A stretch of 64,000 nt of DNA, taken from NCBI RefSeq assembly GCF_021556435.1, contig NZ_JAKGCU010000009.1, forward strand, positions 1-64,000, read 5' to 3'. Position 1 is the stretch's first letter; every line of letters begins with the position of its first letter. The DNA comes from Gordonia tangerina (lineage in GTDB: Bacteria > Actinomycetota > Actinomycetes > Mycobacteriales > Mycobacteriaceae). Made by a program: the position numbers and the translations under genes. The notes under the pieces were generated by a model. The model searched no databases. It was not told the origin of the DNA and saw nothing but the letters and a program-made list of their open reading frames with translations. Shown piece by piece: positions 852-14,614 of the stretch.

Positions 852-1679
852 ATGACAGCGCTCGCTTGTGTCGACCCGCCGCCGACTCGCGTAGCGGTGC
901 GTCGCACCCTGAGTGTCCCCGCCGGCTTCGTCAACTGCGGTCCGTTCGCCTGGCGTCCGGGCATCGACGGAGTCGAGATCATCCACCGGCTGGACGCATC
1001 GACGATCAGCGACGCGTCGATGGTGGACGGACTACTTCATCTCGTGAACCTCGGGATCCTCGCCGGTCGGCATGCTTTCGAGCAGGCCGCGCTGGGTGTG
1101 ATCCGAACTTCTGCGCCCGATGATGACCGCGCGTGGGCGGCGTTCTACGACAATTCCCTCGCCGAACTGGCCGACGGACGCTCGCCTTTTGCCCCGATTC
1201 ATCTACGGGCCAGGTCTCTGGTGATCGGCGAGAGCGTTCTGGAGGTCGGTTCGTGTTTCGGTTTCCTCGCATTGCAGTGCGCCGGCGATGGCCGGCGGGT
1301 ACACGCCTGTGATATCTCCCCCGGTGCCACCGCGCTGCTGAAGTCTGCCGCGCGCCGACGTGGCGACGACGTGTCGGCGGTTGTCGGCGACGCGACCGCA
1401 CTCCCGTTCGGTGCCGACTCGGTCGACACGGTGACGTTGATCCACCTGCTCGAACACCTCGACGATGGCTCGGCTCGTCGTGCGTTGTCCGAGGCGTTGC
1501 GGGTGGCGCGCCGACGCGTCGTTGTCGCTGTGCCCTACGAAGACCACCCCAGTGAGCACTTCGGACATCTGTTGCGCTTGACTGCAAGCCACCTGCGTCA
1601 TTGGGCCGAGCTCGTAAAGCCTGCGACCGTCGAGTTCTTCGACGATCACGGCGGCTGGATGGTCCTCACCCCGCGATAG
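852..1679 (+). CDS. mftM: MftM-like SAM-dependent methyltransferase (mycofactocin oligosaccharide methyltransferase)
   Basis: A 275-residue class I methyltransferase. The SAM-binding motif I is VLEVGSCFGF (about residue 130), followed by an acidic residue in HACDISPGA, then DATALPFGADSVDTVTLIHLLEHL, a typical motif II/III. The protein resembles the mycobacterial MftM, which 2-O-methylates the oligoglucan of the redox cofactor mycofactocin. The neighbourhood also fits: a LuxR regulator, a histidine kinase, two iron-type alcohol dehydrogenases, a VWA protein and a MoxR ATPase follow on the opposite strand, the set found around mftM in mycobacteria. It is convergent with the regulator gene (12 bp apart) and divergent from the rRNA operon. 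I did not see the core mftA-F genes in this window. The name rests on recalled family resemblance plus context. Confidence 0.75.
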   Translation: MTALACVDPPPTRVAVRRTLSVPAGFVNCGPFAWRPGIDGVEIIHRLDASTISDASMVDGLLHLVNLGILAGRHAFEQAALGVIRTSAPDDDRAWAAFYDNSLAELADGRSPFAPIHLRARSLVIGESVLEVGSCFGFLALQCAGDGRRVHACDISPGATALLKSAARRRGDDVSAVVGDATALPFGADSVDTVTLIHLLEHLDDGSARRALSEALRVARRRVVVAVPYEDHPSEHFGHLLRLTASHLRHWAELVKPATVEFFDDHGGWMVLTPR

Positions 1680-1691
1680 ACCGTCGCATGA

Positions 1692-2345
1692 TCAGATCAA
1701 TCCTCGTTTGCTGGCGATGTACACGGCATCGGTGCGCTTGGAGACTCCGAGTTTGCGGATGATGTTGCGAATGTGGAACTTGACCGTCGACTCGGAGATG
1801 TAAAGCGTCTGCCCGATGCGTTTGTTCGACAATCCGTCGGCGAGCAGGCGCAGGACCTCGCGCTCACGCTCGGTCAAACCCTCCGACACCCCTCCCTCCC
1901 CGGACACCGTACGCAGCACGATCGCGGCGCTGCGCGGGTCGAAGGCGCTGCCACCCCCCGACACCGCCTGGATCGCACGGACAAGTTCGGTGGTGTCGAC
2001 GTCCTTCACGACGTAGCCGCGGGCTCCGGCCTTGACCGCGCGGACCACGAGGTCGTCGTCGAGGAATGTGGTCAACACCAGCGCGGCCACACCGGGGTGA
2101 CGCTGCGCGATCTCGCCGATCAGCCGTAGGCCCTCATACTCCGTGCCGGCGGTCAGCTTGAGGTCGACCACGACCACGTCGGGTCGACATCGGGTCACCT
2201 CGGCAAGTGCGTTCTCATACGAGTCCGCCTCGCCGACCACCGCGATCGACGACTCTCGGTCGAGCAGCGATCGGATGCCCTCACGCAACAGGGCGTGGTC
2301 GTCCACCAGCATCGTGCGAACCGCCGTGGTCTCGGGTGCTGTCAT
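1692..2345 (-). CDS. LuxR/NarL-family response regulator of the alcohol dehydrogenase locus
   Basis: 217 residues. The N-terminal receiver domain has the acidic pair in VDDHALLREG, the phospho-acceptor Asp at about 61 (VVVVDLKL) and the conserved Lys in GYVVKD. The C-terminal LuxR HTH (about 152-217) has LTEREREVLRLLADGLSNKR and STVKFHIRNI. The start ATG overlaps the kinase stop codon as ATGA, so the pair is translationally coupled. It is the last gene of the minus-strand cluster running from mdo. By context it should control alcohol oxidation genes in response to the kinase. Candidate binding sites lie upstream of mdo (9502-9534), but this link is inference. Confidence 0.92.
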   Translation of the reverse strand: MTAPETTAVRTMLVDDHALLREGIRSLLDRESSIAVVGEADSYENALAEVTRCRPDVVVVDLKLTAGTEYEGLRLIGEIAQRHPGVAALVLTTFLDDDLVVRAVKAGARGYVVKDVDTTELVRAIQAVSGGGSAFDPRSAAIVLRTVSGEGGVSEGLTEREREVLRLLADGLSNKRIGQTLYISESTVKFHIRNIIRKLGVSKRTDAVYIASKRGLI

Positions 2346-3787
2346 GTTGCCTCCCTCGTCCCCGAACCCGTGGCCCCGGTCACCGGGATCTCGACGCCGA
2401 TGCGCACACCGCCGAGGCGTGATCGTCGGATGCGCAGGCCACCGCCGAGTTCGGTTGCCCTGGTGGCCATATTGGCCAGACCGCGATGCCGCCCGGCCAG
2501 GTCGCCGAGCGTTGCGGCGCGCAACACCTTGCGCATGTGCGCCGGGTCCCCGTCCCCGTCGTCGTCAATGCTCAGCGAGATCAGGTGATCGCCGTAGGAG
2601 AGGGTCAGTCGGGCCGTGGACGCCTCGGCGTGCACGGCGGTGTTGAACAGTGCCTCCCCGGCGATCCGAAGGATGGCGTGTTGAACGTCGTCGGGCAGGT
2701 CTCGTGGTCTCCCCACCACACGCACCTCGGTCTCCAGGTCGGCCGGCATGTGCATCGAACACAGCCCGTCGAGAACCTCCCCCAGGCTCAACTCGCTGAC
2801 CGTCGGCGACTGGTTGAGCGCATAGATCACCGAGCGAAGCTGCTCGACCGCATCGCGCGTGAGTCGTCCGGCGACCTCGAGCCGCTCCGCCGTACGCGGT
2901 TCGGCATCGATCCGGCACACCTCGATCTGCATACCCGCCGACAGCACCGACTGCGTGACCGAGTCGTGCAGCTCTCGAGCGATGCGCTCGCGTTCCTCCA
3001 CCACGAGGCGTTGTCGCATGGCGGCGGACAATTCACGCTGTGTGCGCTCGAGTTCCAGGTTGCGCGCCGCAAGATCCCGAGCCTGTTCGGAAGCCTGCGC
3101 GTACGCGTGTTCGGCCCGGGTCAGCTGATGGCGGCTTTCCTCGAGGAGCGCGGCGTTGAGCAGCGCGACAGCTGCCTGACGCGCCAGAATCCGCATCACG
3201 ACGAGATCCGAGGAGTCCACCGGTGTGTGGGGCGGCGTCCATGCCGACAACCCGCCGACCACCCGGCCGTCGAGATGTACCGGCACATGCAGGTGATGAT
3301 CGTCGACCACCGGACGTGTCAGACGATCCATCTGATTGCGCAGGATGTCGTTGAGTCGGTTGAGCACGTCGGCGGGCAGGTGCCTCGGCGCCCGCGCCAT
3401 CTGAACGCCCTCGAAGGCGAGGATGGTGCCGTCCTGGGTCATCATCAGATGCCGTGGTCCCGTGCGATCGAGCTCGCCATCGCACAGCGCGAACACCACC
3501 CACTCCGCGCCCAGATGCTCTTGGGCGGCGCGCACGACCGACAGCACCAGGTTCTCGGGCCCCTCGGCGGTCTGCACAAGTGCCCGCGATATCCGGTCTA
3601 GCGCGTCGACGACCCGCGACAACCGCTGTTCCACTCCACGGAATTGCGCATAGTGGGATCCCTTGACCGAATGCAATCCGACCAGGGACTCCAACCGATC
3701 GTCGATTCCACCGACGACGTCGTGGTCGGGAGGCGCGTCCATCACCGGATCGACGGGCCCTGGCGCCGGGGCGCGGTGCCCGGCCAT
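2342..3787 (-). CDS. GAF-domain sensor histidine kinase (HisKA_3/NarX-like)
   Basis: 481 residues with no membrane segments, so probably a cytoplasmic sensor. A GAF-like domain spans about 60-215, a coiled linker follows (about 215-260), then the HisKA_3 box RIARELHDSV with the phosphorylated His (about 273), and a C-terminal HATPase with EALFNTAVHA (N box) and LSIDDDGDGD (G1). An ATG was chosen that overlaps the dehydrogenase stop as TGATG and has GGGAGG about 7 nt upstream; a GTG directly before it is the alternative. It sits between dhaT-like and the response regulator. The ligand is unknown. GAF sensing of a small molecule or redox cofactor is a reasonable inference. Confidence 0.9.
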   Translation of the reverse strand: MAGHRAPAPGPVDPVMDAPPDHDVVGGIDDRLESLVGLHSVKGSHYAQFRGVEQRLSRVVDALDRISRALVQTAEGPENLVLSVVRAAQEHLGAEWVVFALCDGELDRTGPRHLMMTQDGTILAFEGVQMARAPRHLPADVLNRLNDILRNQMDRLTRPVVDDHHLHVPVHLDGRVVGGLSAWTPPHTPVDSSDLVVMRILARQAAVALLNAALLEESRHQLTRAEHAYAQASEQARDLAARNLELERTQRELSAAMRQRLVVEERERIARELHDSVTQSVLSAGMQIEVCRIDAEPRTAERLEVAGRLTRDAVEQLRSVIYALNQSPTVSELSLGEVLDGLCSMHMPADLETEVRVVGRPRDLPDDVQHAILRIAGEALFNTAVHAEASTARLTLSYGDHLISLSIDDDGDGDPAHMRKVLRAATLGDLAGRHRGLANMATRATELGGGLRIRRSRLGGVRIGVEIPVTGATGSGTREAT

Positions 3788-4971
3788 CACAATGCCTCCC
3801 GATACAGCCGGTGTACGTCATCTGCAGTCGGTTGACGGGGATTGGTGGTCATGCATGCGTCGGCCAGTGCGTGGGCAGAGAGCACGGCGAGATCCTCGCG
3901 GCGAACCCCGAGCGGTGTCAACGATCCGGGCAGGCCGACGCGGGCGGAGAGGTCGGCGACACGCGCGGCGAACCGTTCGGCGGTCGTATGGGCCGACGAC
4001 GCGGCGGCGACACCCACCGCTTCTGCCAATTCGGCGTAGGGCTGCGGGTCGGTCTCGGCATTGAACCTGATGACATGCGGCAACAGCACCGCGTTGATCG
4101 CCCCATGCGGCGCATCGCACAGACCGCCCACCGGGTGGCTCATCGCGTGGGTCGCACCGAGGATCGCATTGGTGAACGCCATGCCGGCTTCGAGGGCGGC
4201 GTAGGCCATGTCCAGTCCGGCCTGTGCGTCGCCCGGGTCTTCCACCAGCCGCTCCAGACTGCGCCAGGCCGTACCGATGGCCGAGCGGGCCGCGATGTCG
4301 GTGAGTCGGTTGTGGGCGATCGACGCATAGGCCTCGATGCAGTGGGTGATGGCGTCCATCCCCGATTGCGCGACGACCTCCGGGGGCAGTGTTGCCAGCA
4401 CCCTCGGGTCGATGACCGAGACGTCGGGGACCAGCCCGCGACCGATGATGGTGACCTTGGTGCGGCGGTCGACGTCGTTGATGATGCAGAACTGCGAGAC
4501 ATCCGAACCGCTGCCGGCTGTGGTGGGTGCGGCGACCAACGGCGGCAGCGGTCGGCGGGCCCGATCGATGCCCTCGTATTCCAGAATGTGTCCGCCGTTC
4601 GCGGCGAGCACGGCAACTCCTTTGGCGGCATCGATGACCGATCCACCGCCGAGTGCGACGATGCCCTCACAGCGGGCCGATTCGTAGTGTTCGAGCGCGG
4701 CGGACACCTCGGGAGCGCGCGGATTCGGCGACACCCCGGTGAACGAATACACCTGCAGCCCCGACGAGCGCAGGCGATCGCACAGCTCCGAGTACCACGG
4801 GGTCGCCATCAACGGCCGGTCGGAGACGACCATCAGTCGCCGCACGCCCAGGCCATCGGCCGCACGCGGCACCTCGGCCAACGACCCGTGCCCGATGATG
4901 ATCTCCGGGGTGTGGAATTTGGCGATCCGCACACCGGTGCGGATCATCGTCGCGCCCGCCTCGGTTGCCAC
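3787..4971 (-). CDS. Iron-type (group III) alcohol dehydrogenase, 1,3-propanediol dehydrogenase-like
   Basis: 394 residues, usual for the family. The nucleotide-binding GGGSVIDAAKG motif is near residue 97. The metal-binding set follows (D in AQSGMDAITHCIEAY with its H, then H in GATHAMSHPVGG and H in CDAPHGAINAVLLPH). The family oxidises primary alcohols or diols, or reduces aldehydes, with NAD(P) and a divalent metal. It lies in the same transcription unit as mdo, moxR and the VWA gene, and is coupled to the kinase downstream. A similar gene (annotated as 1,3-propanediol dehydrogenase) is known in the equivalent mycobacterial locus. Substrate specificity cannot be read from the sequence. 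Whether it uses a bound nicotinamide and mycofactocin, like Mdo, is open. Confidence 0.85.
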   Translation of the reverse strand: MATEAGATMIRTGVRIAKFHTPEIIIGHGSLAEVPRAADGLGVRRLMVVSDRPLMATPWYSELCDRLRSSGLQVYSFTGVSPNPRAPEVSAALEHYESARCEGIVALGGGSVIDAAKGVAVLAANGGHILEYEGIDRARRPLPPLVAAPTTAGSGSDVSQFCIINDVDRRTKVTIIGRGLVPDVSVIDPRVLATLPPEVVAQSGMDAITHCIEAYASIAHNRLTDIAARSAIGTAWRSLERLVEDPGDAQAGLDMAYAALEAGMAFTNAILGATHAMSHPVGGLCDAPHGAINAVLLPHVIRFNAETDPQPYAELAEAVGVAAASSAHTTAERFAARVADLSARVGLPGSLTPLGVRREDLAVLSAHALADACMTTNPRQPTADDVHRLYREAL

Positions 4972-5024
4972 GTCACCTCACCCGTCCCAGCGCCGGTTGC
5001 CTGTTCGCGATCCTACGCGGGCGA

Positions 5025-6557
5025 TCACCGGTGTACTGGCCCGATCGCGTCGACCGACACCTGCTCCAACTCGGACAGGTCGTGGACAACATGGACCCGG
5101 TCGCACATCGTCGCGTAGGCGGGAAGGTCGCACGATCCCAGGCCCCAGGAATAGCTCGGCTCGGGCGTGATCCAGATCGTCTCCCGGGCCCGCCGCGTGA
5201 TCTCCTCGAATGCGGGCAGGTTGGGGTCCCGGCCGTTGGTTCGGCCGTCCCCGAGGACGATGACGGTGGTGCGACGGTTGACCGCGCCACCGAACTCCTC
5301 GAGAAAGGTCTCCAGCGCGTGTCCGTAGTCGGAGTCGGCGTCGGTGTCGAGCACTCCGCCGGCGGGTAGCCCCGAGACAACGAGCGACAACGCCTCCTCG
5401 GCTGGGTGCTCGGCGAACAGGTCGGTGATCTCGACGAGGTCGGCGACGAAGGCAAAGGACCGCACGTGGGCGACCATGCTCTGCAGCCCGTGCACGAGCT
5501 GCAAGGTGAACCGGGCCGCCGCACGCACCGACAATGACACGTCGGCCAGGACCAGCAGGCTGGGACGATCGGTGACCTTGGCGACCGTGACGGGACGAAA
5601 CGGCACCCCGTCGTAGCGCAGGTTCGCGCGCATGGTGCGAGCGCCGTCGACGGTGCCCCGCGCAGCGAGTTTGCGGCGGGCGCGCGGAGCTCCGTGCAGA
5701 CTGCGGATCAGGCGGCGGATCGATTCCTCGAGGCTCGCCCGGTCCTGCTCGTGGATCACCTCACGCACCGAGGCCTTGATCTCGCGGCTCTCCAGTTCGT
5801 GGTCGGTGGCCATCAATTGCTCGAGGTGATCTCGCAACTTCTCCGGCAGCCCGTCGAGTAGGCCGGCCAGCGCGCGCCGTAGCGCCGCCAACTCCTCGGC
5901 GTCTGGCTGTCCACCCGCGGACTCGTCGGTGTCGAGCCATTCGAGCAGCGCCATCTCCTGCGCGACGGAGAGCTCGGTGTCGAGCTCGGTCGGCGTACCG
6001 GCGACGAGATCACCCGGACGGCCCGGGTTGTGCAGTCGGGACACCGTGAGCTGCACCCGCGCGGCGGCCTCCGAGTTCGGGACCTCGTCGGCCGAGAGCA
6101 CGATCTCGTCCGTGAGCGATGCCATATCGAGTTTGTTGGCCTCCTGATGCAAGTTGTACTGCTCGGCGAGATCCTCCGGGTCGAAGTACTGCCGGATGTT
6201 GGACGGCGGTCCGTGACTGTGTCCCTGCTGCGGAGTCTCGCTGACGTCCTCGGACAGCGTGTACTCCTCGAGTTCGCCGGTGTCGCTGAGATCGTCGTGG
6301 CTGTGCGAGTGCCCATGCCCGTCGTCGCGGTCGACCACCGGCCGCAGACCGAAAAACCGGTCGAAGACCTCGTTGAAGGTGTCCTCGTCGCGGCGGTCCT
6401 TGATCAGGCATACCTCCAGTGCCGATCGCAGCAGCTCACGATCGGCGAGGACTTCCGCCGTCGCGGTGGCTCGCATGGCATCCATCGCCTCGGATACACC
6501 GATCCGTATCCCGTGTAGTCGTAGCAACCGGACGAACCGGTGCAGCGCCCCTTCCAT
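5025..6557 (-). CDS. VWA-domain protein (CoxE-like partner of MoxR ATPase) with His-rich stretch
   Basis: 510 residues. The C-terminal VWA/CoxE-like domain has the MIDAS motif ADVSLSVR (about residue 343) and LGDGRTNGRDPN further on. The N-terminal half is helical and acidic and contains DDGHGHSHSHDD (about 77-88) and QQGHSHGP, which look like metal-binding segments. VWA proteins of this type pair with MoxR AAA+ ATPases to mature or insert metal cofactors in enzymes such as CO dehydrogenase. The gene begins 10 bp after the MoxR gene on the same strand, so the two very probably act together. Likely clients are the two metal-dependent alcohol dehydrogenases of the locus (inference). Confidence 0.85.
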   Translation of the reverse strand: MEGALHRFVRLLRLHGIRIGVSEAMDAMRATATAEVLADRELLRSALEVCLIKDRRDEDTFNEVFDRFFGLRPVVDRDDGHGHSHSHDDLSDTGELEEYTLSEDVSETPQQGHSHGPPSNIRQYFDPEDLAEQYNLHQEANKLDMASLTDEIVLSADEVPNSEAAARVQLTVSRLHNPGRPGDLVAGTPTELDTELSVAQEMALLEWLDTDESAGGQPDAEELAALRRALAGLLDGLPEKLRDHLEQLMATDHELESREIKASVREVIHEQDRASLEESIRRLIRSLHGAPRARRKLAARGTVDGARTMRANLRYDGVPFRPVTVAKVTDRPSLLVLADVSLSVRAAARFTLQLVHGLQSMVAHVRSFAFVADLVEITDLFAEHPAEEALSLVVSGLPAGGVLDTDADSDYGHALETFLEEFGGAVNRRTTVIVLGDGRTNGRDPNLPAFEEITRRARETIWITPEPSYSWGLGSCDLPAYATMCDRVHVVHDLSELEQVSVDAIGPVHR

Positions 6558-6567
6558 CCTGCTCGCC

Positions 6568-7992
6568 TCAGAACGGCCGCTTGCCGGTGCCGCCTCGTCG
6601 CTGGAACGACCGGCTCCCCTGACCCGGACTCACACCGCCCTTGGTACCGGCCTCGCTGCGGGCGCCCGGCGATCCGTAGTAGTCCTGTCCGTGACGCCCC
6701 GGAAGATCTTTGGCGGCCCGCCGCGCCGGCCCCGAGTTCGTCTCGTGCCCGGGCGAATGGTCATGATCGTGGGAATGCCCGTGGTCATGGGAGTGCCCGT
6801 GGTCGTGCGAGTGGCCGTGGTCGTGCGAGTGCCCGTGCAAATGTTCGGGCACTTCGGCATTCGGATCGACCAACCTGGGCATGGCATCGATCGCACGAGT
6901 CAGGTCCCGGTCGTATTTGACCACGACATTGGCGGTGTCGGAGAGGATCTCGGCGGTGAGGTCGTCGGCACCGAGAACAGCGAGGGTCCGCGCCCAGTCG
7001 ATGGCCTCGGAGATGCTCGGCGCCTTGCGCAGATCCAGCTCGCGCAACCCGCGCACGATCTGCACGAGCTGTGCGGCCAATGCCTCCGACAACCCGGTGT
7101 CCTTGGACTTGATGATCTCCAGTTCACGGTCGGCATCGGGGTAGTCCAGCGACAGGTGCAGGCAGCGTCGTTTGAGCGCGGCCGACAGATCCCGGGTGTT
7201 GTTGGAGGTCAACACGATCATCGGCTGGTGGGTAGCGACGAAGGTACCGATCTCCGGCACAGAGACCTGATACTCGGCGAGCAGTTCCAGCAAGACCGCC
7301 TCGAGCGCTTCGTCGGCACGATCGACCTCGTCGACGAGCAGTACCACCGGCCTTTCGGAGCGCACGGCTTCCAGCAGCGGCCGCGGTGCGAGGAAGCGTT
7401 CGGAGAAGAACACGCTCTCCTCGGCACCAATCCGGTCGACCGCTTCGGTGAGTGTCGCGGCATCCTCGACGACCTGGCTGATCTTCTCGCGCAGCACCTG
7501 TGTGTAGAGCAGCTGCTTGCCGTAATCCCATTCGTAAAGCGCGGTCGTCTCGTCCTGGCCCTCGTAGCACTGCAGGCGCAACAGGTGGCGTCCGGTGACC
7601 TCTGCCAGTGTCTTGGCGAGTTCGGTCTTGCCGACTCCCGCAGGCCCCTCGAGCAGGATCGGCTTGTCCAGCCGGCTCTGCAGGAAGACCGTCGTCGCGA
7701 GGCGCTGATCGGCGAGATAGCCTGCTGCGGCGAATTTCTCGATCACGTCGGCGACGTCGGTGAAGGGGGGCGACCCTTCGTGACGCCCGCTCGTTCCTCG
7801 CGGGCTCCTCAGGGGACGGGCGGATCCCCCGTCATCCGTGCCACCCCCGCGGGGTGATTCCCCGTCACCCGTGCCACCCCCAGATCGGGGTGGCCGTTCC
7901 CCACCGGTGCCACGCGAGCCACTCATGGACCGGGCGGGATCGGGGCTCGTCGGTCCGAACTCGTCGGGCTCGTCGGCGAACTGCACGGACAT
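6568..7992 (-). CDS. MoxR-family AAA+ ATPase with His-rich tail
   Basis: 474 residues. The N-terminus (1-75) is low-complexity Gly/Ser/Pro/Arg. The AAA+ core follows with Walker A EGPAGVGKTE (about 115), Walker B VVLLVDEVDRAD, sensor-1 VLTSNNTRDLS and an Arg-rich box RRCLHL. After the AAA+ lid comes a striking segment with the repeated unit GHSHDH four times, ending in DHDHSPGH (about 390-415), then a basic tail. MoxR ATPases act with VWA proteins as metal-insertion or activation chaperones. The His tail suggests handling of Zn, Fe, Ni or Co. It lies directly downstream of mdo behind two hairpins, and upstream of the VWA gene. The role in dehydrogenase activation is inferred from context. Confidence 0.9.
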   Translation of the reverse strand: MSVQFADEPDEFGPTSPDPARSMSGSRGTGGERPPRSGGGTGDGESPRGGGTDDGGSARPLRSPRGTSGRHEGSPPFTDVADVIEKFAAAGYLADQRLATTVFLQSRLDKPILLEGPAGVGKTELAKTLAEVTGRHLLRLQCYEGQDETTALYEWDYGKQLLYTQVLREKISQVVEDAATLTEAVDRIGAEESVFFSERFLAPRPLLEAVRSERPVVLLVDEVDRADEALEAVLLELLAEYQVSVPEIGTFVATHQPMIVLTSNNTRDLSAALKRRCLHLSLDYPDADRELEIIKSKDTGLSEALAAQLVQIVRGLRELDLRKAPSISEAIDWARTLAVLGADDLTAEILSDTANVVVKYDRDLTRAIDAMPRLVDPNAEVPEHLHGHSHDHGHSHDHGHSHDHGHSHDHDHSPGHETNSGPARRAAKDLPGRHGQDYYGSPGARSEAGTKGGVSPGQGSRSFQRRGGTGKRPF

Positions 7993-8046
7993 CGGTGTCT
8001 CCGGTTCTGTGGGCGGGTCACGGTGATCGAAATTGGGGTGGTGAAT

Positions 8047-8120
8047 GCAGACGGGTGGCGAAACCTGGTCGGGGGCAGTGGATTCGCCACCCGTCTGCGC
8101 CGTAGGGGTGGCGCCCCTAC
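8047..8120 (-). terminator. Two hairpins after mdo: terminator or attenuator inside the cluster
   Basis: A perfect 16-bp stem (8047-8062 with 8083-8098, key arm GCAGACGGGTGGCGAA, 20-nt loop) is preceded on the transcript by a 7-bp stem GTAGGGG/CCCCTAC (8102-8108 with 8114-8120) that overlaps the mdo stop codon. No long T tract follows on the minus strand, so this is better seen as a partial terminator, attenuator or 3' stabiliser that lowers expression of the MoxR-VWA genes relative to mdo. Confidence 0.6.
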
Positions 8121-9409
8121 GAGATCAGGTCATCGAGGTCGCCGTTGAAGGCGTGATCGACGACAGGTCGCACGGTTTCGAACGTGCACTCCTTCGGGTT
8201 ACCCGGAGTGCAGGCGTCGCCGAGCACGTGGTTGGTGATCGCGTCGATGGACTCCGGCGCACCCGAGATCTCCTTGCGGTTCTCGTAGAACTTGGTCGGG
8301 CCCTGACCGAGCCGGTTCTTGATGTGCGAGTCCTGCGTCACGTCGGTGAACTTCTCCGGGATACCCACATCGCGCAGCAACCGGATCGCCGCATTGAGCG
8401 CCTGATCAGCAGCCTGAACCTTGGTCATACCGTGCGTGTCGACGCCCATCGCCTCGGCGAGATCGGCAAAGCGCTCGTAGAGCACCGGCATGTTGAATGC
8501 CCACACACGCGGCAGCGCGATCGCATTGTTGAGTCCGTGGTGGGTGTCGTAGAAAGCCGACACCGCGTGGCTGATCGAGTGGATGATGCCCAGGCCGCCC
8601 GAATTGAAGGCCTGCGCCGCGATGTACTGCGCGTACATCATGCCCTCGCGGCCGGCGAGTTCGGTGGGGTTCCACGTGGCCTCACGCAGGTGTCGTGCGG
8701 TCAATCGCACCGCATGCAGTGCATTGCCCATCGACGGCGGGAAGTTCAACCGCGAGACATACGGTTCGGAGGCGTGCGCGAGCACGTCGAACCCGCACTG
8801 TGCGGTGAACGCGACCGGGCAGTCGTAGTAAAGCACCGGATCGTCGATCGCGAGGGTGGTCACCGACGCGTCGTCGAACGCCACATACTTGTGCGGCTTG
8901 TCCGGGTCGGTGGTGGTGTCGGTGATGACGTAGGCCCAGGAGGTCTCCGATCCCGTGCCCGCCGTGGTGGACACCGCGATATGCGGCGGGTTCTTCGGGT
9001 TCTCGCTCTTGTTGAAGCCTTCGAACTCGTTGATGTTTCGTCCGTCGTGCGCCACCGAGATGCGCGCTCCCTTACACGCGTCATGGGCCGATCCACCACC
9101 GATCGAGATGAAGGAGTCACACTGCTCGGAGTTGTAGAGCGACACCGCGTCCATCACGTTGTAGTCCTTCGGATTGGACTCCACCTGATCGAACAGCACC
9201 ACTTCCAGTCCGTGGTACTTGCATGACTCGACGATCTTGTGGACGGTGTCGCTGCCCCGCAGTCCGGTGGTCATCACCAGGGTGCGCTTGAAACCCAGCT
9301 TCAGCGCCTCGGGTCCGATCATCTCGTGGGCGCCGGGGCCCATCATCGCCCGCGGGAAGGGATGGAACTCTTTGATGGGGAATGGTTTGAGTAGCTCGTC
9401 GACCTGCAT
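8117..9409 (-). CDS. mdo: NDMA-dependent methanol/alcohol dehydrogenase (Mdo/Mno), iron-type ADH family
   Basis: 430 residues from the ATG chosen for its AGGAGG 9 nt upstream; an earlier in-frame ATG lacks this. The N-terminus MQVDELLKPFPIKEFHPFPR is typical of actinobacterial methanol:NDMA oxidoreductases. Metal and cofactor motifs are IGGGSAHDACKGA (near 104), STTAGTGSETSWAYVITD, AQCGFDVLAHASEPYVS, HSISHAVSAFYDTHHGLNNA. Enzymes of this family oxidise methanol and other primary alcohols with a tightly bound NADP(H) that needs an external acceptor; in mycobacteria the natural acceptor is mycofactocin. It is the first gene of the minus-strand cluster and probably the most highly expressed. The nearby mftM supports the mycofactocin link. 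Confidence 0.88.
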   Translation of the reverse strand: MQVDELLKPFPIKEFHPFPRAMMGPGAHEMIGPEALKLGFKRTLVMTTGLRGSDTVHKIVESCKYHGLEVVLFDQVESNPKDYNVMDAVSLYNSEQCDSFISIGGGSAHDACKGARISVAHDGRNINEFEGFNKSENPKNPPHIAVSTTAGTGSETSWAYVITDTTTDPDKPHKYVAFDDASVTTLAIDDPVLYYDCPVAFTAQCGFDVLAHASEPYVSRLNFPPSMGNALHAVRLTARHLREATWNPTELAGREGMMYAQYIAAQAFNSGGLGIIHSISHAVSAFYDTHHGLNNAIALPRVWAFNMPVLYERFADLAEAMGVDTHGMTKVQAADQALNAAIRLLRDVGIPEKFTDVTQDSHIKNRLGQGPTKFYENRKEISGAPESIDAITNHVLGDACTPGNPKECTFETVRPVVDHAFNGDLDDLIS

Positions 9410-9466
9410 GGTGACTGTCCTCCTGCGCGCGCTGCGCGATATCGGCATCGGTGGTGAACACCGGCG

Positions 9467-9534
9467 ACGTTACGCGCGTCACACTGGCGGACAACAGATC
9501 TCGGAGTGCAAACCCGCCCTTGGCGCCGGAGTGC
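9467..9534 (-). promoter_or_regulatory. Candidate mdo promoter with upstream direct repeats
   Basis: On the minus strand TTGTCC (9494-9489) and TAACGT (9472-9467) are spaced by 16 bp. Upstream of the -35 lies an 8-bp direct repeat (plus-strand CGGAGTGC at 9502-9509 and 9527-9534) with a period of 25 bp. Its position would suit an activator such as the LuxR-type regulator of the cluster. Found by eye, so tentative. Confidence 0.35.
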
Positions 9535-10358
9535 TATCCGGTTGGCACCCGGCGCCCTGTCCGTTCGGACAGGGCGCGCATGGTGTCCACGTCGAATCCC
9601 CACGGCAACTCGAGACGGTGCCGCGCCAACGTCTCCGCGTCGGCCAGTACATCGAGGATGGCGCCATCGGCGACGACCCGCCCCTCGTCGACGATCACCG
9701 CCCGGTCGCACAGCTGCGCGGCGTAGGGCAGGTCGTGAGTCACCACGATCATCGTCGTGTCCAGTCCGATCAGCGTCTCGGCGAGTTCGCGGCGCGCGAC
9801 GGGATCGAGATTGGCCGACGGCTCGTCGAGGACCAGCACGTCGGGCCGGCATGCCAGCACCGATGCCAGCGCCCCGCGACGACGCTGACCCCCGGAAAGG
9901 TGATGGGGACTGCGCTGCGCCTGCTCGCGCATCCCGACCGCGGCCAGCGCCTCGTCGACACGTTCGGCCAGCGCCTGCCCCTCGACGCCGAAATTGGCGG
10001 GTCCGAAGGCCACGTCCTCGGCGAGGGTCGGCATGAAGAGCTGATCGTCCGGATCCTGGAACACCACGCCCACCTGCCGCCGGACCTCGCGCACCGATTT
10101 CTTGTCGACGATCCGCCCGTGGATGGACACGACACCTTCGGTCGGCGTCAACACCCCGTTGAGGTGCAGCATCAGGGTCGTCTTCCCTGCGCCGTTCGGC
10201 CCGAGCAGAGCGACCCGCTCGCCTGCGCGGATTCGCAGGTCGACTCCGTCCAGAGCCCGATGCCCATCGGGATAGGTGTATCGGACGCCGCTGACCTCGA
10301 CCGCCACACCGGTCGACGGGAGCGGCTCCGAACCAGCAGTGGACTTCCGACGTATCAT
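9534..10358 (-). CDS. cbiO: Cobalt/nickel ECF transporter ATPase CbiO
   Basis: 274 residues. Walker A is LLGPNGAGKTTLMLHLNG, the Q-loop VFQDPDDQLFMPTLAEDVAFGP is characteristic of ECF/CbiO ATPases, the signature is LSGGQRRR and Walker B is VLVLDEPSANLDP, followed by the switch His in VVTHDL. The ATG at 10358 was chosen because it overlaps the CbiQ stop as ATGA and has GGGGAG just upstream. The longer reading frame adds 22 residues with no family resemblance. It energises Co2+/Ni2+ import with CbiM and CbiQ, and is the last gene of the operon. Confidence 0.92.
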   Translation of the reverse strand: MIRRKSTAGSEPLPSTGVAVEVSGVRYTYPDGHRALDGVDLRIRAGERVALLGPNGAGKTTLMLHLNGVLTPTEGVVSIHGRIVDKKSVREVRRQVGVVFQDPDDQLFMPTLAEDVAFGPANFGVEGQALAERVDEALAAVGMREQAQRSPHHLSGGQRRRGALASVLACRPDVLVLDEPSANLDPVARRELAETLIGLDTTMIVVTHDLPYAAQLCDRAVIVDEGRVVADGAILDVLADAETLARHRLELPWGFDVDTMRALSERTGRRVPTG

Positions 10359-11131
10359 GTTGCTCCCCATGAGATCACGGCGATAATCACAGCGATGGTC
10401 GCGGGCGTGGTCACCGCGAGCCACTGACGCGCGCTGGCACGCGCCGACCCGGCGACGCCGGGCATCTCCGGAATGGCGCCGCTGAAACCGCGCGACATCA
10501 TCGCGAGATGCACACGTTCGCCACGTTCGTAGGACCGCAGGAACAGCGCACCGATACCCTGTGCGATCGCGCCGGCCCGATGCAGAGTGCGCGGTGAGTC
10601 ACCGCGCGCCAACCGAGCGATGTGCATCCTGCGGATCTCCGCCGACAACAGATCCGCGTACCGCAACATCATGACGATCACCGGCGTCACGGTGGCAGGC
10701 ATGCCGAGGCGCGTCAGCGCCACCGGCAGCGCACTGGCCGGGGTGGTCGCCGCGAACGTCAGCGAAGCCGCCACCCCGAGCGTGCCCTTGATGACAATCC
10801 CCCACGCCGCGTAGAGCCCGGCCACCGACAGCGACATACCCGCGACGTGCACGCGCTCACCGCCCTCGGAGAACGGCAGCAGCACTGCGAGCACGACGAA
10901 CGGCGCCTCGATGAGCATGCGCGGCAGAATCCATCTCAGCGGGATCGTTGCGAACCGCCAGATCGTCAGCAGTATCGCTGCGTAGAGCACGTAGGGCCAG
11001 AACACTTCGCGGGGCGTGGCCACCACGGCAAAGACGAACACCACCAACGCCGCCAACTTGGCCTCGGCAGGTGCCCGATGTACCACCGATGTTGCGGATC
11101 GGTACAGCGGGTGTGCGTGGCCGGCGCCCAT
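10355..11131 (-). CDS. cbiQ: Cobalt/nickel ECF transporter transmembrane protein CbiQ
   Basis: 258 residues with about five membrane segments (for example around 26-60 and 70-88). The cytoplasmic coupling region has the two family motifs: the one near IRRMHIARLARGD and, further on, SYERGERVHLAMMSRGF. CbiQ is the T component that couples the ATPase to the substrate-capture protein CbiM. It lies 15 bp after the PDGLE gene and overlaps cbiO by 4 bp. The N-terminal GAGHAHPLY is common in CbiQ proteins linked to cobalt. Confidence 0.9.
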   Translation of the reverse strand: MGAGHAHPLYRSATSVVHRAPAEAKLAALVVFVFAVVATPREVFWPYVLYAAILLTIWRFATIPLRWILPRMLIEAPFVVLAVLLPFSEGGERVHVAGMSLSVAGLYAAWGIVIKGTLGVAASLTFAATTPASALPVALTRLGMPATVTPVIVMMLRYADLLSAEIRRMHIARLARGDSPRTLHRAGAIAQGIGALFLRSYERGERVHLAMMSRGFSGAIPEMPGVAGSARASARQWLAVTTPATIAVIIAVISWGAT

Positions 11132-11146
11132 GGTGCTGACTTCGGT

Positions 11147-11539
11147 TCAGCGTCGGCTGACGCCACGGGTCGCGGTGCGACCGTCGGCCCGGCGTCGAGC
11201 GATCAGCCAGAACACGGCAACCGCAACGGTGAGGGTCACCAGCACGCCGATGACGCCTGCGACGCCGTTGGAGTACCCGATTCCACCGACCGAGTAGTCG
11301 GCGAGGGGCGATGATGCCAGCGCGTGTTCGGTGGCGTGCTGCGCGATACAGTCGCCGGTCAGATTCTCGGTTCCGTTCACCACGATCGTCTCGCATCCGC
11401 GCAATGTCGTGGAGTCGAGCCCGTCCGGCGAGGCACTGGCCGCATACGACACGACACCGGCGATGACGAGCGCCGCCAAGCCAAAGACCACCAGGAATGC
11501 CCGGCGACCCAAGCGGTGTGCGCGGTTGGACGTGGTCAT
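11147..11539 (-). CDS. PDGLE-domain membrane protein (CbiN-type component)
   Basis: 130 residues with one N-terminal membrane helix (about 14-32) and one C-terminal helix (about 92-113). Between them is the family signature SPDGLDSTTL and later HALASSPLADY, which define PDGLE proteins. These replace CbiN in many Co/Ni ECF transporters, either fused to CbiM/NikM or separate as here. The start ATG overlaps the cbiM stop as ATGA. Two Cys (in GCET and GDCIAQ) in the extracytoplasmic loop could form a disulfide. Confidence 0.85.
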   Translation of the reverse strand: MTTSNRAHRLGRRAFLVVFGLAALVIAGVVSYAASASPDGLDSTTLRGCETIVVNGTENLTGDCIAQHATEHALASSPLADYSVGGIGYSNGVAGVIGVLVTLTVAVAVFWLIARRRADGRTATRGVSRR

Positions 11540-12237
11540 GCGTGCGCTCCCGTCCTGGTGGTGTCCGCGGCCACCGTCTGCGGTCGGGACCGCAGGAGGT
11601 ACACGAGGTCGGGGCGGGTGCGGGCGACTGCCATCACGGTGACGGCGGTGATCAGCCCCTCCCCCACACCGATGAGGGCGTGCGTACCCCACATGTAGCC
11701 GGCCACAGCGGTCAGCGACTGCGTCGCAGCGCCCCCGATCTCGTATTCGACGATGAATCCGGTTGCGGCCGCGAGCGTTCCACACAGGGCGGCGACAAAG
11801 GCCACCACTCCCAGACGACCGACCGTCCAGGTTCGGCGCGCGATCAATCGCATCATCCCGACTGCCACCGCGTAGCCGACGACGGTGGAGATCAGCGCCA
11901 TGTTCGTGATGTTGGCGCCCAGCGCCGTGACCCCGCCATCGGCGAACAGCAACGCCTGCACGATCAGCACGATGGCGATACACAAGGCTCCGGTGAACGG
12001 CCCCACCAGGATCGCGGCCAACGCCCCACCAAGCAGATGACCGCTCACCCCGGGCAGGATCGGGAAGTTGATCATCTGGACCGCGAAGATGAACGCGGCG
12101 ACCAGACCTGCCATCGGTACCGTCTTCTCATCGAGGTCGGCGCGAGCGCGCCAAGCACACAGCGCGAGGCCGACCACCGCGATCACCGCAAATACGGCTG
12201 ACGTCGGCGCGTCGATGATGCCATCACTCATGTGCAT
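11536..12237 (-). CDS. cbiM: Cobalt/nickel substrate-capture protein CbiM
   Basis: 233 residues with about seven hydrophobic segments. I start it at the ATG that gives MHMSDGIID, because the family requires Met1-His2, whose amino terminus and His2 bind the metal; a longer frame with 12 extra residues would destroy this site. Further family features are HLLGGALAAILVGPFTGAL and the conserved Asn/His in ALGANITNMALI. It is the first gene of the cbiM-PDGLE-cbiQ-cbiO operon. Metal preference (Co or Ni) cannot be fixed from sequence. The cobalamin adenosyltransferase gene nearby favours cobalt. No cobalamin riboswitch was seen upstream. Confidence 0.92.
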   Translation of the reverse strand: MHMSDGIIDAPTSAVFAVIAVVGLALCAWRARADLDEKTVPMAGLVAAFIFAVQMINFPILPGVSGHLLGGALAAILVGPFTGALCIAIVLIVQALLFADGGVTALGANITNMALISTVVGYAVAVGMMRLIARRTWTVGRLGVVAFVAALCGTLAAATGFIVEYEIGGAATQSLTAVAGYMWGTHALIGVGEGLITAVTVMAVARTRPDLVYLLRSRPQTVAADTTRTGAHA

Positions 12238-12300
12238 CGCCACCGTGGTGGACGAAGAGGTCGTCGGGAACATGGTCGAACCGTAAGCACACCACCGTCA

Positions 12301-12334
12301 TCTGTCCACTTATTCAGATGTTTAAGTGGACAGA
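12301..12334. promoter_or_regulatory. Perfect 12-10-12 inverted repeat, probable metalloregulator operator
   Basis: TCTGTCCACTTA and TAAGTGGACAGA form a perfect 12-bp inverted repeat around a 10-nt AT-rich spacer, 64 bp upstream of cbiM and 30 bp after the ArsR stop codon. ArsR/SmtB regulators bind such dyads at promoters. No T tract follows, so a terminator is less likely. The probable user is the adjacent NmtR-like regulator. Confidence 0.6.
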
Positions 12335-12363
12335 CTGGCCGATCGGTCAGGTGGGGTCCTGCA

Positions 12364-12699
12364 CTACGAGTGACCGGCACCCATCCAATGCAGCAATTGA
12401 TGGACGGTTTCGTCGTCGAGCCGGTAGCTCACCGAACGGCCCTGCCGGGTGGAGCTGACCCACCCCTGGTGTCGAAGCACCCGCAAAGCCTGCGAGACAG
12501 CCGTTTCGGTCCGGCCCACCGCCGCGGCCAGATCGCCCACGATGATGCCCGGCCGCCGATGCAGCACGATCAGGATCTCCAGCCGGTGTGGATCGGACAG
12601 CAGGTCGAACCTGGTGGACCACGCGGCGATGTCCACATCGGCGGCATGCGGGGACGGGGCGTTCGCGGCGCCCGGTCGGTGACCGTGGTCGGCGGTCAC
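12364..12699 (-). CDS. ArsR/SmtB-family metalloregulator, NmtR-like
   Basis: 111 residues from a GTG that lies 1 bp after the murA stop codon. The winged HTH is clear: LLSDPHRLEILIVLHRRPG, DLAAAVGRTETAVSQALRVLRHQGWV, and the wing RQGRSVSYRL. The N-terminal extension TADHGHRPG with another His later resembles that of mycobacterial NmtR, whose N-terminus and C-terminal His/Asp residues bind Ni/Co. Here the C-terminus has HQLLHWMGAGHS. It probably represses the cobalt uptake operon, or an export gene elsewhere, through the palindrome at 12301-12334. The ribosome-binding site before the GTG is weak, so expression may depend on coupling to murA. Confidence 0.82.
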   Translation of the reverse strand: MTADHGHRPGAANAPSPHAADVDIAAWSTRFDLLSDPHRLEILIVLHRRPGIIVGDLAAAVGRTETAVSQALRVLRHQGWVSSTRQGRSVSYRLDDETVHQLLHWMGAGHS

Positions 12700-12700
12700 C

Positions 12701-13957
12701 TCACTCGCCCACTCGCTCGATCTCTCCGCCGAGGTTGCGCAGGTTCTCCACAAAGTGCGGATATCCGCGGTCGATGTGCTCGACGTCGTGCACCTCGGTC
12801 ACCCCGTCGGCGACCAGCCCGGCCAGTACCAGACCCGCACCGGCCCGGATGTCCGAACACCACACCGGGGCGCTGGACAATCGCTCGATGCCGCGGAGCA
12901 CCGCATGATGTCCATCGGTGCGTGCATCGGCACCGAGTCGCACCATCTCCTCGACGAAGCGGAAGCGCGCCTCGAACACATTCTCGGTGATCACCGACAT
13001 CCCGTCGGCAATCGCGGCCATACCTATCGCCATCGGCTGCAGGTCGGTCGGGAATCCGGGAAACGGCAGTGTCGACACGTTCACCGCGGTCGGGCGACGA
13101 TCCTGGCGCACCCGGAATCCGTCGTCGAACGTGTCCACCATGGCCCCGGCGTCGCGCAGCTTGGTGAGGACCAGCTGCAGGTGGTCGGGCGAAACACCGC
13201 GCACGGTGACGTCGCCGCGTGTCATCGCCGCGGCGATTCCCCATGTCGCACCGACGATGCGATCTCCGACGACCCGGTGGGTGGTCGGATGGAGTCGGTC
13301 CACGCCGGTCACGGTCAGCGTCGACGTGCCGGCTCCGTCGATCCGCGCGCCCATCTGCTGCAGCATCACGCACAGGTCGACGATCTCCGGCTCGCGCGCA
13401 GCGTTGTCGATGACGGTCACCCCCTCGGCGAGCACCGCTGCCATCAGGATGTTCTCCGTGGCACCCACCGATGGGAACTCCAGTGCCACCGGCGCACCGA
13501 CCAGGGTGTCCGCTTCGGCCACCACACAGCCGTGTTCGATGGAGCTGTGCGCCCCGAGTGCGCGCAGACCCGCCTGATGCATGTCCAACGGCCGAGAGCC
13601 GATGGCGTCGCCGCCGGGCAGGGCGACCACCGCACGGTGGCATCGTGCCATCAGCGGACCGAGCACACAGACCGAGGCGCGGAACTGCTTGACCGCATCG
13701 AAATCGGCGTGGAACTTCGGTTCGGCAGGCGCATCGATCACCACGGTGTCGCCGTCGATCGACACCACCGCACCGAGCCCCCGCAACACGTCGGCCATCA
13801 GCGGCACGTCGGCAATCTCGGGTGAATTCGTCAGTGTGGTGGTGCCCTCGGCCAGCAACGAGGCGGCCATCAGTTTCAGCACACTGTTCTTGGCCCCGCC
13901 GACGGAGACCTCGCCGGACAGGCGGGCGCCACCGGACACCAGAAAACGATCACTCAC
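12701..13957 (-). CDS. murA: UDP-N-acetylglucosamine 1-carboxyvinyltransferase (MurA), Asp-type
   Basis: 418 residues, full length. It catalyses the first step of peptidoglycan synthesis, transfer of enolpyruvate to UDP-GlcNAc. N-terminal [16 protein letters not shown] is the substrate-binding motif. In the active-site loop the usual catalytic Cys is replaced by Asp ([11 protein letters not shown], about residue 116), as in mycobacterial MurA; this change is known to give fosfomycin resistance. C-terminal motifs [14 protein letters not shown] are complete. It is the next gene after the adenosyltransferase, the same order as in mycobacteria, where murA precedes the rRNA operon. Confidence 0.97.
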
Positions 13958-13966
13958 GGTGCCACC

Positions 13967-14614
13967 TTAGCCTTCGTCGGCGCTCGTTCCGCTCGGACCG
14001 CCGCCCCGCTGACCCGCCCCGGGCCGCGCACGATCCCCACCCGGCACCCACTTCACGTCCCCGCCACCGACGGGCGGCCGATTCGCGACGCGCGCCAGGA
14101 TGAACAGCAGGTCCGACAGTCGATTCAGGTAGCGGGCCGGCAGCACGCTGGTGGTGTCCGGTTCGGCGTCGACGGCCGCCCACGCGGAGCGTTCGGCCCG
14201 GCGGGCGACGGTTCGCGCATGGTGCAGCAGGGCGCTCAGTCGCGTGCCCCCGGGAAGAATGAAGGAATCCAGCGAGGGCAGCCCCTCACCGAATTCATCG
14301 CACCAGCTCTCCAGCGCGTCGATGTAGCTCTGTTCGATCCGCAGCGGCGGATACTGCGGATTCTCGATCACCGGTGTCGACAGGTCGGCTCCCGCGTCGA
14401 AGAGATCGTTCTGAACTGTCGCCAGCACGGTGGCGATCTCGTCGGGGACCTGGTCGGCCAGAGCCAGCGCCATCCCGATGACCGCATTGGCCTCATCGCA
14501 GTCGGCATACGCGCCGACTCGCAGGTCGGTCTTGGCCACCCGGGAGAAATCGCTGAGACCAGTCGTGCCGTCGTCGCCGGTGCGTGTGTAGATGCGGGTG
14601 AGATGAACAGCCAT
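13967..14614 (-). CDS. Cob(I)alamin adenosyltransferase, PduO type
   Basis: 215 residues. The N-terminal ATP-binding motif IYTRTGDDGTTGL and the later SALLHHARTVARRAER and RYLNRLSDLLFILAR are hallmarks of the PduO/MMAB family, which transfers the adenosyl group of ATP to cob(I)alamin to make the B12 coenzyme. The C-terminal 25 residues are low complexity (Gly/Arg-rich). It stands 9 bp upstream of murA. Together with the cobalt transporter this suggests an active B12 economy, though no B12-dependent enzyme is in the window. Confidence 0.93.
   Translation of the reverse strand: MAVHLTRIYTRTGDDGTTGLSDFSRVAKTDLRVGAYADCDEANAVIGMALALADQVPDEIATVLATVQNDLFDAGADLSTPVIENPQYPPLRIEQSYIDALESWCDEFGEGLPSLDSFILPGGTRLSALLHHARTVARRAERSAWAAVDAEPDTTSVLPARYLNRLSDLLFILARVANRPPVGGGDVKWVPGGDRARPGAGQRGGGPSGTSADEG

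Follow-up and report, generated by a model that had tools for sequence, protein, structure and literature searches.

MadB-MadC, a putative AAA+/VWA maturation machine for the mycofactocin-type methanol dehydrogenase Mdo, in Gordonia tangerina

How does the mycofactocin-type methanol dehydrogenase Mdo become an active enzyme? Soil bacteria related to Gordonia and Mycobacterium use it, with the unusual cofactor mycofactocin, for the oxidation of methanol and ethanol. The question is raised by the first 64,000 nucleotides of contig NZ_JAKGCU010000009.1 of Gordonia tangerina (genome size 5.29 Mb; this whole stretch is the window, and all coordinates are positions in it), where mdo is followed by the genes of a MoxR-type AAA+ ATPase, MadB, and a von Willebrand factor A (VWA) protein, MadC. 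In Mycobacterium smegmatis, alcohol use depends on Mdo, which has also been proposed to reduce mycofactocin (PMC11778925, PMC6529628); the literature searched yielded no account of how the enzyme becomes active. The near-obligate partnership of MadB-MadC with Mdo provides a direct and testable answer. The pair is, very likely, a machine dedicated to Mdo. The reading of its function that we prefer, with a probability of roughly 0.48, is that of a maturation machine resembling NorQ-NorD (NorQD), most likely loading the active-site metal of Mdo, and equipped, in the subfamily to which the window belongs ("type 2"), with metal-binding segments of its own.

The three genes are:

8117..9409 (open reading frame to 9448), minus strand: mdo, methanol dehydrogenase of the NDMA (N,N-dimethyl-4-nitrosoaniline)/mycofactocin type; TIGR04266, 685 bits against a cut-off of 625
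6568..7992, minus strand: madB type 2, MoxR AAA+ ATPase with a His-rich C-terminal tail; PF07728; NF047784, 368 bits, below the cut-off of 475
5025..6557, minus strand: madC type 2, VWA_CoxE protein; PF05762, 108 bits; NF047783, 263 bits, below the cut-off of 600

The mdo start is likely to be at 9409 (MQVDELL) rather than at 9448, and the closest named relatives of the protein are from Gordonia.

The linkage of the pair to Mdo was followed in two sets of genomes. A class-wide sample comprised 246 genomes drawn evenly, plus 14 control genomes; sample searches scored the best 4 to 6 candidates per genome, and MadB was searched for in the window genome and in the Mdo loci. Full-length MadC (defined as >250 bits) is present in 8/246 class genomes, in 9 copies, and Mdo above the TIGR04266 cut-off in the same 8 genomes, also in 9 copies; neither turned up in the 14 control genomes. 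Below these, MadC matches in the class sample reach at most 158 bits and cover mainly the VWA part of the protein. In a family sample of 301 genomes, 134 have MadC, 133 have Mdo, 132 have both and 166 have neither (phi 0.98); the mismatches (MadC only in G435 and G504, Mdo only in G457) are all cut by contig ends. The mycofactocin gene product MftC, which the window genome also encodes (G000:C64), is distributed quite differently: it is found in 76/246 class genomes, all 8 Mdo genomes included, and 68 of these 76 mycofactocin-positive genomes lack full-length MadC. MadC therefore tracks Mdo and not mycofactocin; nor does it track the second alcohol dehydrogenase (ADH) of the locus. The same count weakens one variant offered in the initial annotation, namely that the pair exchanges tightly bound nicotinamide for mycofactocin.

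Gene order tells the same story. Eighty named Mdo loci (the best 80 of 415 relatives) are all at least 81 % identical to the window Mdo and therefore represent type 2; madB and madC lie directly downstream of mdo in 77 of them, and in two others (L059 and L117) the contig ends just past mdo (the third is taken up below). MftC lies within ~10 kb of the module, inside the stretch analysed, in 42/80 loci (0/11 of those from Gordonia): the mdo-madB-madC module thus often sits with mycofactocin biosynthesis genes. It is this near one-to-one linkage, together with the mdo-madB-madC order, that singles out Mdo as the dedicated client. A dedicated pair had been proposed in the initial annotation, with co-occurrence set beforehand as the check, and the proposal is strongly supported: far from occurring mostly without mdo, full-length MadC is found without it only at contig ends.

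Two rival assignments can be weighed against these counts. The first is that the client is the other dehydrogenase of the locus:

3787..4971, minus strand: second type III iron-type ADH; PF00465/PF25137; best NCBIfam match ErcA (NF041833), 440 bits, below the cut-off of 550

This gene adjoins madC in the window, and the metal-site residues of its product are the same as those of Mdo (the D-H-H-H residues are present in the alignment; that they are the type III ligand pattern is our assumption). However, it is detected in only 47/80 Mdo loci (some stretches being too short to tell), against 77/80 for the pair, which makes it an unlikely client, and in layouts of the Nocardioides L080 type it stands several genes off and on the opposite strand. 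The initial annotation had kept it as an alternative; we consider it very improbable. (ErcA is, according to NCBIfam, a regulatory ADH-like protein, and the second ADH gene also adjoins a kinase gene; a sensing role for this second ADH is possible.) The other assignment, that MadB-MadC belongs to the CO dehydrogenase-type (CoxDE) systems and is found beside mdo by chance, can point to identical Pfam families; it is already contradicted by the co-occurrence, and we accord it practically no weight. Moreover, three further strong MadB-like genes are present in the window genome, each beside different genes: 1) one that follows an aldehyde dehydrogenase-like gene and precedes VWA and cytidylyltransferase-like genes; 2) one with VWA and 2Fe-2S domain genes; 3) one with genes for XdhC and a molybdopterin enzyme. 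Two of the three thus have XdhC, 2Fe-2S or molybdopterin enzyme genes for neighbours.

Correlation of evolutionary distances is a weak test here, because the loci were picked by Mdo identity. For trimmed proteins from 74 loci the Pearson coefficients are 0.91 (MadB-MadC), 0.62 (Mdo-MadC) and 0.60 (Mdo-MadB), and the Spearman coefficients, in the same order, 0.65, 0.45 and 0.38; with untrimmed open reading frames (46 loci), Mdo versus MadB or MadC gives 0.25-0.29, below the 0.36 of Mdo versus MadS, the sensor kinase of the locus. An apparent madB-madC fusion in G442 (L152) was dropped, madB being frame-shifted there. Separately, madC of G419 is split over two frames (G419:C1:3125231-3126717). 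Both genomes are ~80 % complete by estimate, and both frame breaks are accordingly likely to be sequencing errors.

What kind of machine do these two genes specify? Its recognizable parts, all on the minus strand, are:

7624..7647: MadB Walker A (GPAGVGKT), invariant 9/9
7318..7347: MadB Walker B (VVLLVDEVDR), D221 and E222 invariant 9/9
6742..6843: MadB His-rich tail, with four GHSHDH units at 6763-6834 (residues 387-410)
6664..6711: MadB C-terminal motif KDLPGRHGQDYYGSPG, in 5/5 type 2 sequences aligned (F replaces H in one)
6288..6326: MadC His patch 1, residues 78-90, DDGHGHSHSHDDL; H83, H85 and H87 invariant 53/53
6204..6230: MadC His patch 2 (QQGHSHGPP), residues 110-118; H113 and H115 invariant 53/53
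5523..5543: MadC loop 1 (DVSLSVR, DxSxS) of the metal ion-dependent adhesion site (MIDAS); D339, S341 and S343 invariant in 9 sequences of both types and in 53 of type 2
5232..5267: MadC later MIDAS-like loop (TVIVLGDGRTNG); G436 and D437 invariant in the same two alignments

MadB has the sequence marks of a MoxR ATPase: its PF07728 AAA domain scores 53 bits against a threshold of 22; Walker A, Walker B and sensor motifs are invariant in 9/9 aligned sequences; and its profile matches Midasin, NorQ and CbbQ chains by sequence. The four GHSHDH units that the initial annotation placed at the end of the protein are real, but 64 residues follow them. Those residues include a KDxPGRHxxxYYGxPG motif that many relatives share, though not all (the strict PGRx2-5YYG form is found in 33/77). 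A His-rich tail is present in 77/77 type 2 loci (67 scored by script and 10 judged by eye); counted from two anchors, at least 6 His per 20 residues were found in 67/67 and 48/48 tails (29 lack the second anchor). The background is low: this density is reached in 46/47 MadB open reading frames (the caller picked up 47 of the 77), in 4/756 unclassified neighbouring frames and in 1/36 second-ADH frames.

MadC has the attributes of a VWA partner: PF05762, a DxSxS MIDAS and a VWA fold in its structure model. For the MIDAS threonine there are two candidates, T378 (invariant in the 9-sequence alignment) and T431 (invariant in the 53-sequence alignment, which consists of the window and 52 of the 77 available type 2 sequences). 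The two His-rich patches noted initially hold up, all five histidines being invariant; they are shorter than the MadB tail, and 0/62 called MadC frames reach 6 His in 20. The model, built with 53 sequences (mean predicted local distance difference test score, pLDDT, 64; predicted template modelling score, pTM, 0.44), shows with confidence a helical N-terminal domain (residues 1-70), which is followed by a low-confidence stretch (72-118), helices, and the VWA domain at ~330-490. Both His patches fall inside the low-confidence stretch, which the model suggests is probably disordered; by position they come after the N-terminal domain, where a NorD-like linker would be. A Foldseek search with the model ranks NorD in NorQD (9qhe_G) third, at E 5.6e-5, among many VWA domains; VIA-align, whose rows span mainly residues 291-504, gives Z 11.6 for 9qh8_G (179 residues, 3.9 A), with many VWA domains tied. 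No PHROG family matched MadC, and no PDB sequence matched its profile at E 0.1.

The His segments have a natural control, in that the module exists in two subfamilies. In type 1, Mdo reaches 815-975 bits and MadC at most 799; in type 2, which includes the window pair, the scores are 641-695 bits for Mdo and 237-293 for MadC (genes that are split or cut by a contig end lie outside these ranges). In the family sample, 31/31 type 2 Mdo have a type 2 MadC on the same contig, at a gap of 1.2-1.6 kb; adjacency and order of mdo-madB-madC are kept in the 20 type 1 loci examined (4 + 16); and five genomes of the window's genus (G139, G428, G446, G454 and G526) have both types of Mdo and both types of MadC. 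Type 1 proteins do without the histidines: the density is at most 3 in 20 residues in 16/16 MadB and 16/16 MadC, and no His-rich stretch was seen by eye in the remaining four loci. Since type 1 manages without them, the type 2 segments must be dispensable for the basic job: they are real and conserved, but accessory.

Mdo itself, the presumed client, brings more suggestions as to what is done to it. D221, H225, H290 and H304, which we take to be its metal ligands from the spacing in type III ADHs, are invariant in 9/9 aligned sequences that represent both types. So is an NPKDY stretch, and a similar one, near NAD, has been tied to mycofactocin by Haft (PMC3023750). This points to what we regard as the main rival, a reactivase resembling CbbQ-CbbO, which would remodel finished Mdo and so expel a dead-end or inhibitory nucleotide (ADP-ribose, or a damaged or wrongly bound NAD(P)) from its closed cofactor site, much as CbbQ-CbbO acts on Rubisco, the His segments serving only to buffer or sense metal. 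Mycofactocin-linked dehydrogenases do include nicotinoproteins with non-exchangeable NAD(P) (PMC3023750), ADP-ribose potently inhibits related Bacillus enzymes, whose activator is explained by its removal (PMC12926040), and the absence of His segments from type 1 would be no embarrassment. Against this, the 68 mycofactocin-positive genomes without full-length MadC imply that other mycofactocin-linked nicotinoproteins presumably work unaided, and the five invariant MadC histidines would need another reason. We know of no such inhibitor of Mdo, and think a reactivase doubtful, if still a serious competitor.

A second suggestion comes from a feature peculiar to Mdo:

8258..8332, minus strand: Mdo-specific insertion in the C-terminal domain, residues 373-397, ~24 extra, KNR invariant, absent from the second ADH

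The alignment of Mdo to solved type III methanol dehydrogenases stops near profile position 365, and the insertion is a candidate docking element. Might MadB-MadC then be an assembly chaperone, responsible for building the Mdo oligomer or for docking Mdo to a partner in electron transfer, for example the mycofactocin oxidation system? Among NDMA methanol oxidoreductases the oligomer is a decamer; to our knowledge, however, decameric type III ADHs related to Mdo form their oligomers unaided by any such pair. The related Bacillus methanol dehydrogenase is likewise decameric (PMC6102214), and the conservation of the insertion speaks for such a function. On the other hand, the next most regular neighbour is mftM (71/80, versus 77/80 for the pair), and no further gene cluster approaches that frequency. 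An assembly chaperone is, on balance, a good deal less probable than a reactivase.

The argument for metal draws on a counterpart in M. smegmatis. The mno operon, MSMEG_6236-6242, has the same gene set by annotation, and the same order, from which MSMEG_6240 would be MadC and MSMEG_6241 MadB; the second ADH, judged by position, would correspond to MSMEG_6239, a putative 1,3-propanediol dehydrogenase. The operon is induced by ethanol in the wild type but not in mft mutants, in which, however, expression started from a higher basal level; growth on ethanol depends on MSMEG_6242 (PMC6529628). MSMEG_6240 ("hypothetical"), 6241 ("ATPase AAA") and 6242 (alcohol dehydrogenase) are all zinc-responsive: they are down 24-28 fold in a zur mutant, 4.6-6.4 fold in an smtB mutant and 3.0-4.6 fold in excess zinc, the values for 6240 and 6241 being bracketed in the source (PMC7174638). 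The operon therefore responds to metal status, and the direction is repression by zinc. The passages concerned do not study MSMEG_6240 and 6241 further (PMC6529628, PMC7174638).

How might a metal-loading machine work? A MadB hexamer would grip the VWA domain of MadC, which would hold Mdo through its MIDAS and its N-terminal domain. ATP hydrolysis would stretch the linker between the MadC domains and so open Mdo, and the opened Mdo would take its metal at D221, H225, H290 and H304, as is proposed for iron insertion by NorQD. In type 2, the MadB tail and the five invariant MadC linker histidines would hold metal near Mdo; type 1 would do the same basic job without His segments.

Several considerations weigh against this scheme: 1) In Pseudonocardia acidicola K10HN5, the second mdo (L104) lacks the pair although its flanks are complete (L096 of the same strain has one). 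2) The type 1 pairs, which lack His-rich segments in 20 loci, accompany an Mdo with the same four ligands. 3) Many unrelated proteins match a VWA fold about equally well, and the MadC model is of low quality. 4) We know of no such pair for other type III ADHs that share these ligands, among them the second ADH of this operon and the solved enzymes from Bacillus. 5) The zinc effect in M. smegmatis is one of operon repression and fits several readings. Metal loading into Mdo by MadB-MadC is, in short, plausible but unproven, and as the main act of the pair it is about an even bet. A bolder version makes of type 2 MadB-MadC a motor carrying its own metal cargo, metallochaperone and unfoldase in one, whose His clusters hand metal into the opened Mdo; type 1 would then rely on free metal, and the five two-set genomes would switch between sets. 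This we think possible, but rather unlikely. Whatever the act, MadB-MadC may matter for producing active Mdo in foreign hosts.

The remaining features of the locus are:

2342..3790, minus strand: madS (mnoS-like), GAF sensor histidine kinase; NF047786, 669 bits against a cut-off of 500
1692..2345, minus strand: madR (mnoR-like), LuxR-type response regulator; NF047785, 345 bits against a cut-off of 300
852..1679, plus strand: mftM, mycofactocin oligosaccharide methyltransferase; NCBIfam NF041255, 348 bits, above the cut-off of 200
9556..9573, no strand: perfect 18-bp palindrome CCTGTCCGTTCGGACAGG, 147 bp upstream of the mdo start at 9409 and within the end of the cbiO frame

All the components listed initially for this locus (two iron-type ADHs, MoxR ATPase, VWA protein, kinase/regulator pair and MftM) are thus borne out by NCBIfam and Pfam. 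The minus-strand order is mdo, madB, madC, second ADH, madS, madR, with mftM (detected in 71/80 named Mdo loci) convergent behind; the gaps are 124 bp (mdo-madB), 10 bp (madB-madC) and 53 bp (madC-ADH), followed by overlaps of 4 bp each at ADH-madS and madS-madR. The six genes probably form one operon.

An exact match to the palindrome occurs nowhere else in the 5.29 Mb genome; with up to 2 mismatches there are 10 places genome-wide, against 3 for a backward-read control. The palindrome is kept, with changes, in 10/10 aligned upstream regions (the window and 9 Gordonia loci). The MnoR palindrome of M. smegmatis is likewise single-copy, 137 bp upstream of MSMEG_6242 (PMC11303327), and by analogy the window palindrome is probably the MadR operator. 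A version with 3 mismatches lies at 12334-12351, ~60 bp upstream of cbiM; it may be due to chance, as 31/100 shuffles match at least as well in the window.

Beyond mdo, 9534-14614 holds cbiO, cbiQ, a PDGLE protein gene, cbiM, an ArsR/MarR-like regulator gene, murA and a PduO-type adenosyltransferase gene, a block common in most of its genes to 10/11 Gordonia loci. The CbiMQO cobalt transporter was considered as a metal source and dropped from the system. CbiM is found in 10/80 loci, all from Gordonia (10/11); CbiO is found in 15/80, five of these only 30-36 % identical. Deletion of mnoSR in M. smegmatis does lower a cobalt transporter (PMC11303327), but a B12-dependent diol dehydratase would account for this more simply.

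Comparison with what is already known begins with names. NCBIfam MadB (NF047784) and MadC (NF047783) are homologous to the window pair, and their genes, too, stand in this order next to those for Mdo, ADH, MadS and MadR; at L042, members of type 1 reach 548 and 742 bits on them, whereas the window pair stays below both cut-offs and has the His-rich segments in addition. The initial annotation's view that such an activase would be new is thus half right: no paper was found, but families for MadB, MadC, MadR and MadS exist. A published description of the link between the MoxR-VWA pair and Mdo was not found in the open-access literature (most subscription papers lie outside that scope); the terms MoxR, ATPase and von Willebrand are absent from the Rhodococcus mnoA paper (PMC9502362), and the MnoSR paper (PMC11303327) does not mention them either. 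No source for the name Mad was found; the MadRS of Enterococcus is an antimicrobial-peptide system.

Three MoxR-VWA systems invite comparison. The methanol dehydrogenase that uses pyrroloquinoline quinone is unrelated to Mdo, but both enzymes use a peptide-derived redox cofactor, and in this the two may be seen as parallel. It too has a MoxR-VWA set, MoxR with MoxC/L, for calcium insertion (PMC12657314). CbbQ-CbbO, the Rubisco activase, is similar as a pair dedicated to one enzyme (PMC12657314); for Mdo, an inhibited state is hypothetical. The likeness on which the preferred reading builds is to NorQ-NorD, again a MoxR ATPase with a VWA protein (MIDAS, N-terminal domain, linker) serving one metalloenzyme (PMC13036017, PMC9976466). 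There, the proposal is that the ATPase stretches the linker of NorD and thereby lets iron into the client nitric oxide reductase (PMC13036017); surface carboxylates of the client are required, as is an intact VWA domain (PMC9976466). With the calcium set, this makes a precedent for metal insertion by MoxR-VWA pairs (PMC13036017, PMC12657314). MadB-MadC likewise pairs with one enzyme, whose metal is predicted from its ligand residues. It differs from NorQ-NorD in its client, a dehydrogenase of the iron-ADH type; in the invariant histidines of its MadC linker; and in that insertion is, here, putative. If the likeness holds, nicotinoprotein dehydrogenases join the clients of MoxR-VWA machines as an added class.

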